Source: Dongia mobilis
GTDB taxonomy: Bacteria; Pseudomonadota; Alphaproteobacteria; Dongiales; Dongiaceae
Assembly (NCBI RefSeq): GCF_004363235.1
Contig: NZ_SNYW01000013.1
Location: 62,001 to 126,000, forward strand
Direction: 5' to 3'
DNA: 64,000 nt
Both the position numbers and the translations under genes were made by a program. This document shows positions 39,598-40,267 of the stretch, in pieces (positions within the stretch are counted from its first letter, which is position 1; every line of letters starts with the position of its first letter). The notes beneath the pieces are model-generated. The model ran no database searches. It was not told the origin of the DNA and was given only the letters and a program-made list of their open reading frames with translations.

Positions 39598-40221
39598 ATG
39601 CCCGACTGGACTTATGAAATGGCCGCCGGCCTCGCCAAGGGCCAGCTCGTCTGCGGCGTCGATGAGGTCGGGCGGGGTCCCTTGGCGGGACCAGTAATTG
39701 CCTGCGCCGTGATCCTGGACCCCGCGCGCCTGCCGAAGGCGCTGGAGAAGCGCCTGGATGATTCCAAAAAGTTGAGCGCCGGGGCGCGCGAAGATATCGC
39801 CGCCGCCTTGCAGGAAGTGGCCATCTTTGCCGTGGCGGGGGCGAGCCCGGCCGAGATCGATGCCGTCAACATCCTCAAGGCCACCCACCTTGCCATGCGC
39901 CGCGCCGTCGAGGGTCTGGCGCTGGCGCCCGCCCATGCCCTCATCGACGGCAACCGGCCACCCGCCCTGCCCTGTCCCGGCACCTGTATCGTCAAGGGCG
40001 ACCAGAAGAGTCTCTCCATCGCTGCCGCCTCGATTCTCGCGAAGGTGGAGCGGGACAAGATCATGAGTCAGCTGGCCAGCGTGCATACCGTATATGGGTG
40101 GGAACGCAATGCCGGCTACCCGACGCCCGAGCACTTGGCTGCCATCCGCGCCCATGGCATCACCCCACAACACCGACGGACATTTAGACCTGTTTCTGAG
40201 AACATTCTGATAACCAGTTGA
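39598..40221 (+). CDS. rnhB: ribonuclease HII
   Basis: 207-aa enzyme that removes ribonucleotides embedded in DNA and RNA primers. The acidic active site begins at VCGVDEVGRGPLAGPV (Asp-Glu near 20), with a further Asp in AHALIDGN; IVKGDQKSLSIAAASILAKVERD is the RNase HII signature. ATG 39598 has GGAG just upstream; a GTG 22 codons earlier (39532) is possible. The stop codon overlaps the first GANTC site of the ccrM promoter region. Confidence 0.94.
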   Translation: MPDWTYEMAAGLAKGQLVCGVDEVGRGPLAGPVIACAVILDPARLPKALEKRLDDSKKLSAGAREDIAAALQEVAIFAVAGASPAEIDAVNILKATHLAMRRAVEGLALAPAHALIDGNRPPALPCPGTCIVKGDQKSLSIAAASILAKVERDKIMSQLASVHTVYGWERNAGYPTPEHLAAIRAHGITPQHRRTFRPVSENILITS

Positions 40222-40267
40222 CTCAAATCACTTTCTCGTTGACACGCGGAATCGCGTGACTCAGGAT
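40220..40267 (+). promoter_or_regulatory. ccrM promoter with three GANTC sites
   Basis: GACTC (40220-40224), GAATC (40249-40253) and GACTC (40258-40262) lie in 43 bases between rnhB and ccrM. A consensus -35 TTGACA (40239-40244) followed after 17 bases by CAGGAT (40262-40267) gives a plausible sigma70 promoter, with one GANTC in the spacer and one touching the -10. In Caulobacter the ccrM promoter carries GANTC sites and responds to their methylation. Confidence 0.7.

Follow-up and report, generated by a model that had tools for sequence, protein, structure and literature searches.

How does an alphaproteobacterium control the synthesis of CcrM? Most of what is known about ccrM regulation comes from Caulobacter, in which CtrA drives the gene, and the ccrM locus of Dongia mobilis raises the question of whether CcrM could govern its own gene through GANTC, its own target site. 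The locus lies in a stretch of 64,000 nucleotides (G000:C8:62001-126000, here called the window) of a 4.19-Mb genome, G000. The product of ccrM (40294..41388, plus strand, starting at TTG 40294 or ATG 40303) matches the CcrM structure PDB 6pbd over its full length (E 4e-160) and carries the DPPY motif; its score of 636.5 bits against NCBIfam NF050803 falls under the model cut-off of 830. GcrA is encoded in the same genome (G000:C2:236188-236715, E 1.4e-39). No restriction endonuclease gene was seen beside ccrM, the identified neighbours being rnhB, dnaB and a PA0069-family radical SAM gene. A small ORF of 111 aa (39133-39465), with a likely signal sequence and no NCBIfam match, sits between the radical SAM gene and rnhB.

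A sequence-only reading of this DNA had placed GACTC, GAATC and GACTC within 43 bases of the ccrM promoter, and these positions were exactly confirmed: the interval from rnhB to ccrM holds three GANTC sites that together span 43 bp. The ribonuclease HII gene rnhB (39601..40221, plus strand) terminates just 5′ of the promoter, and site 1 (GACTC, 40220-40224), centred at about -52 from the predicted start, shares bases with its stop codon TGA (40219-40221), so that part of this site is under coding constraint. Next come the -35 element TTGACA (40239-40244, plus strand) and, in the spacer at about -25 to -21, site 2 (GAATC, 40249-40253). Site 3 (GACTC, 40258-40262) occupies about -16 to -12, and its final C also serves as the opening base of the -10 hexamer CAGGAT (40262-40267, plus strand), which bears out the earlier placement of one site in the spacer and one meeting the -10. 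From the -10 spacing, transcription is predicted to start on the plus strand at 40274, give or take 1-2 bases. The hexamer fits the class consensus CANNNT and is weak owing to the C at -12; because of this weakness, a sigma-70 promoter scan did not call the ccrM promoter. Three further GANTC sites occur in 62 bases of the 3′ part of rnhB (40008-40069), just 5′ of the promoter.

GANTC is depleted in the window, with 125 sites found against 299.5 expected from shuffles, a deficit that is compatible with methylation of GANTC by CcrM in D. mobilis. When the 125 sites were placed at random, at least one triple within 43 bp appeared in 26% of trials (mean 0.32); three such triples were observed, at ccrM, upstream of dnaB and inside radA. 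With a chance of 26% per window, cluster density was rejected as evidence by itself. A 43-bp GANTC cluster alone is weak evidence, and conservation is strong evidence. As to the cluster in radA, it is intragenic, with four GANTC in 88 bases of coding sequence (46388-46475).

Conservation of the ccrM sites proved extensive. Among 213 ccrM upstream regions, which come from related loci and whose counts are not independent events, 130 carry TTGAC with a GANTC exactly 19 bases on, and thus keep the 17-bp spacing between the promoter elements. All 130 have A at -11 and T at -7; neither base had been used for selection, and their universal occurrence therefore argues that the promoter is real. By its sequence, then, the ccrM promoter is a predicted sigma-70-type promoter of the form TTGAC-17-CANNNT, in which one GANTC extends into the -10. 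A second GANTC lies in the spacer, at +7 to +10 from TTG, in 115 of the 130 loci with site 3. The spacer site is in fact the more widely kept (152 of the 213 loci, against 130 for the site abutting the -10), and the C at -12 is still common (75%) in promoters that have the spacer site only. When GANTC offsets from TTGAC were pooled, peaks appeared at +19 (131), +8 (94) and -15 (68). The third of these matches an upstream GANTC found 15 bp 5′ of TTGAC in other lineages and 19-20 bp 5′ in the Dongia mobilis genus. Leaderless ccrM mRNA was considered as a general feature and rejected, applying to 52 of 143 cases at most.

The same order of GANTC, TTGAC, GANTC and GANTC is kept in the six nearest genomes (G000-G004 and G006), where site 2 reads GAATC, GAGTC or GACTC and varies in its N alone. 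Farther afield, most of 80 named loci, including Dongia, Shimia, Ruegeria, Roseovarius, Paracoccus, Azospirillum, Niveispirillum, Micavibrio and Reyranella, carry GANTC near +8 and +19 relative to TTGAC. By a loose test, both sites are present in 36 of 80 family codes (136 loci), a few of these matches being doubtful (L125, L136, L167 as first matched, and L177). Mapped on a CcrM tree, the core must have switched between presence and absence at least 16 times.

Could the sites be kept for some reason other than methylation, such as promoter strength or another regulator whose site contains GANTC, or owe their presence partly to chance? The overlaps of site 1 with a stop codon and of site 3 with the -10 would suit such an explanation, as would the general enrichment of GANTC in intergenic DNA (Gonzalez 2014, as relayed in PMC8116508). 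The explanation is nonetheless unlikely, given that the offset peaks were absent from the coding and reverse-strand controls and that variation between lineages at site 2 is confined to the N, with G, A, T and C unchanged.

The layout is also largely specific to ccrM, as judged against a genome-wide background derived from pattern searches. A strict pattern occurs once in the 4.19 Mb of G000, at ccrM. Across 61 genomes it gave 44 matches, 25 of them at ccrM, and the reversed control gave 12; a loose pattern gave 50 matches, again 25 at ccrM, and its reversed form 8. A general regulon with the same layout was not seen, the sole other loose match in G000 falling within a ptsI-like coding sequence.

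Because the site positions are kept across much of the class, the best reading of the locus is autoregulation that responds to methylation. It is likely that the ccrM promoter senses methylation, whichever the sign of the effect, and CcrM probably tunes its own production through its own target sites there. To this extent the feedback proposed in the sequence-only reading stands, with its sites in a real ccrM promoter; its supposed Caulobacter descent and its extension to dnaB do not. As for how such feedback might operate, the best explanation, to which we give a probability of roughly 0.4, would be a private sigma-70 promoter of ccrM, of the housekeeping type, that acts homeostatically and can dispense with GcrA. 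The CcrM recognition site would be built into the spacer and the -10 edge of this promoter, and its methylation state, changing with fork passage and with CcrM action, would set ccrM transcription. Full methylation of the site abutting the -10 would lower promoter activity, and hemimethylated or unmethylated DNA would let the promoter fire, so that CcrM would be made when marks are missing. Both the methylation of the sites and its effect on promoter activity are inferred here. In genomes with GcrA, such as that of D. mobilis, the promoter may be further activated by GcrA-sigma70 acting at the spacer site.

Another way that CcrM could act on its gene is by sitting as a protein on sites 2 and 3, which most lineages space by one turn of the helix, and blocking RNA polymerase, in which case binding would matter and not the mark. 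Their spacing, 11 bp in the commonest form, would accommodate this, as would the dimeric state of CcrM (PMC6787082), and methyltransferases of restriction-modification (R-M) systems that bind their own promoters do exist (PMC6237814). Those examples, however, depend on an additional DNA-binding domain and on an operator that has nothing to do with the recognition site (PMC6237814). Moreover, site 2 slides by 1-3 bp between lineages, and the spacing is 9 bp in the Dongia mobilis genus. Occupancy by CcrM is very improbable.

A third means of feedback would be positive, with a methylated (hemi- or fully methylated) spacer GANTC recruiting GcrA-sigma70 to the weak CANNNT promoter, much as at ftsZ. 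GcrA binds sigma2 and promotes open-complex formation at m6A promoters (PMC7403470). Among cell-cycle transcription start sites, one temporal cluster is distinguished by a GANTC between -10 and -35 (PMC4287350), and a GANTC between -35 and -10 activates C. crescentus ftsZ when methylated (PMC3708114), which counts against a homeostatic sign for the ccrM promoter. In a 2021 study of 13 species, ccrM came out as the predicted GcrA target with the widest conservation, class-wide, the link being lost in Caulobacterales and Parvularculales; by its own statement, its method ignores site location (PMC7987155). The presence of GcrA in G000 is in keeping with such recruitment. The promoter itself offers two further points in its favour. 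The spacer site is commoner than the -10 site and the C at -12 persists in spacer-only promoters, which suits a weak, activator-dependent promoter over a pure repressor design. In addition, site 2 is enriched for the motif YGAKTCG (65 of 162 loci, which are not independent, against 75 of 509 in the background). Site 2 of the window, GGAATCG, nevertheless misses this motif on both strands; a match (CGAGTCG) occurs in two of six same-genus genomes. The motif is an enrichment and not strictly defining. Nor does the strict layout occur at any other promoter of the genome, unlike what a regulon would show. On the side of the homeostat stand the R-M systems in which methylation of a recognition site in the met promoter lowers expression (PMC6237814), and the gcrA gene of A. 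tumefaciens, which has six GANTC upstream and which CcrM represses (PMC11514494); similar control of gcrA is not apparent in G000, where gcrA has one distant upstream GANTC.

The distribution of GcrA bears most directly on this possibility. Both sites are present in 50 of 114 genomes with a GcrA match and in 7 of 20 without, so that the presence of GcrA does not predict the architecture, and co-occurrence could not be upheld as proof of a GcrA reader. A profile search of the GcrA-less genomes gave no convincing GcrA, and a DNA motif of the GcrA DNA-binding domain was found in none of twelve such genomes, all four positive controls being matched; absence here means not found by sequence search in the assemblies, several of which are split into many contigs. 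About ten genomes combine CcrM and a GANTC promoter (both sites or the spacer site) with undetected GcrA, the carriers being G080, G141, G223, G283, G208, G089, G143, G073, G096, G045 and G159; of these, G080 is a single-contig genome rated 100% complete. Since the architecture persists in genomes without detectable GcrA, GcrA is not needed for its maintenance. This leads us to lean slightly toward a GcrA-dispensable and probably homeostatic design, with activation by GcrA, tentative but possible, close behind.

The comparison with Caulobacter gave a different picture from the one expected, in that the sequence-only reading had taken autoregulation to be conserved from there. This was wrong in detail: the Caulobacter relatives have a different, CtrA-type layout. 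The architecture is absent from a Caulobacter relative whose CcrM shares 97% identity with the solved C. crescentus enzyme and from the other genomes of its family, f61, where the region upstream of ccrM has TAACC-type CtrA half-sites and where GANTC, if present, lies near or in the leader. It is also absent from three Hyphomicrobiales loci (L097, L100 and L114). In f154, a family of the same order as f61, the core is kept, and several members also have CtrA-like sites upstream; thus L245, L247, L251, L254 and L259 carry the GANTC core, and most of them have CtrA-like sites farther upstream. The f154 loci are possible intermediates between control by CtrA and control by GANTC. In the Dongia mobilis genus, no CtrA site of the TTAA-N6/7-TTAA type was found in the 300 bp upstream of ccrM at seven loci. 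The ccrM gene of Ruegeria KLH11 is not regulated by CtrA (PMC3692519), which fits the GANTC architecture of the Ruegeria ccrM loci in the sample. Taken together, the survey suggests that ccrM commonly has a layout other than that of Caulobacter. On a broader and rather doubtful scheme, a promoter dedicated to ccrM and spread over much of the class would read the CcrM mark without GcrA and serve as a homeostat of genome methylation, GcrA having been layered on in some lineages and CtrA having replaced the system in Caulobacter relatives.

The neighbouring genes do not extend the arrangement. A module of rnhB, ccrM and dnaB had also been proposed for this locus, but it does not hold as a conserved unit: of 136 loci, 126 have rnhB upstream of ccrM and only two have dnaB following ccrM, within the flanks examined. 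Lying upstream of the ccrM promoter, rnhB is not driven by it. The region upstream of dnaB has an adjoining GACTCGAATC and GATTC (41565-41597), and of this GANTC layout only one site is kept, within the genus. A DnaA-like box, TTATCCACA (41601-41609), recurs 5′ of dnaB in most near relatives.

If the preferred homeostatic reading holds, a widespread design outside Caulobacter may let CcrM's own mark set the dose of CcrM, and a loop of replication, methylation and methyltransferase synthesis would be closed without CtrA. Retention of the promoter in GcrA-less genomes would further ask what else reads m6A at promoters, and both the sign and the reader of the methylation mark become directly testable. 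That ccrM is a GcrA target throughout the class had already been predicted, though with no positions for the sites (PMC7987155), and an earlier comparative analysis tallied the sites in promoters of 500 bp and reached no conclusion on methylation control (PMC2877005). What is new, and was not found in the literature searched, is the base-level architecture, its single occurrence in the genome and its retention in genomes where no GcrA was detected.

Several known systems resemble this promoter in part. The C. crescentus ftsZ and mipZ promoters are reportedly activated by GcrA and CcrM (Gonzalez and Collier 2013, Haakonsen 2015). Like the ccrM promoter, that of ftsZ is of the sigma70 type with a GANTC between -35 and -10, and both proteins are encoded in the D. 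mobilis genome; the ccrM promoter differs in having two phased sites, one built into the -10, in a layout essentially confined to ccrM and kept without detectable GcrA. The Caulobacter ccrM promoter shares the gene and has GANTC nearby, but it has CtrA-type half-sites, and its GANTC lies near or in the leader, outside the -35/-10 spacer. The predicted link between GcrA and ccrM concerns the same gene and the same loss in Caulobacter relatives; that prediction, however, assumed GcrA and ignored positions (PMC7987155), whereas the present survey works at base level, samples 80 families and includes GcrA-less carriers. Finally, in R-M systems of the CfrBI type, the recognition site lies in an element of the met promoter, and methylation lowers its activity (PMC6237814). 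Such promoters likewise have their own recognition site overlapping a promoter element, as the last base of site 3 does with the conserved -10. They are intrinsically strong, unlike the ccrM promoter with its weak -10, a difference that counts against the homeostat, and ccrM for its part encodes a putative orphan methyltransferase whose promoter is shared by many families.
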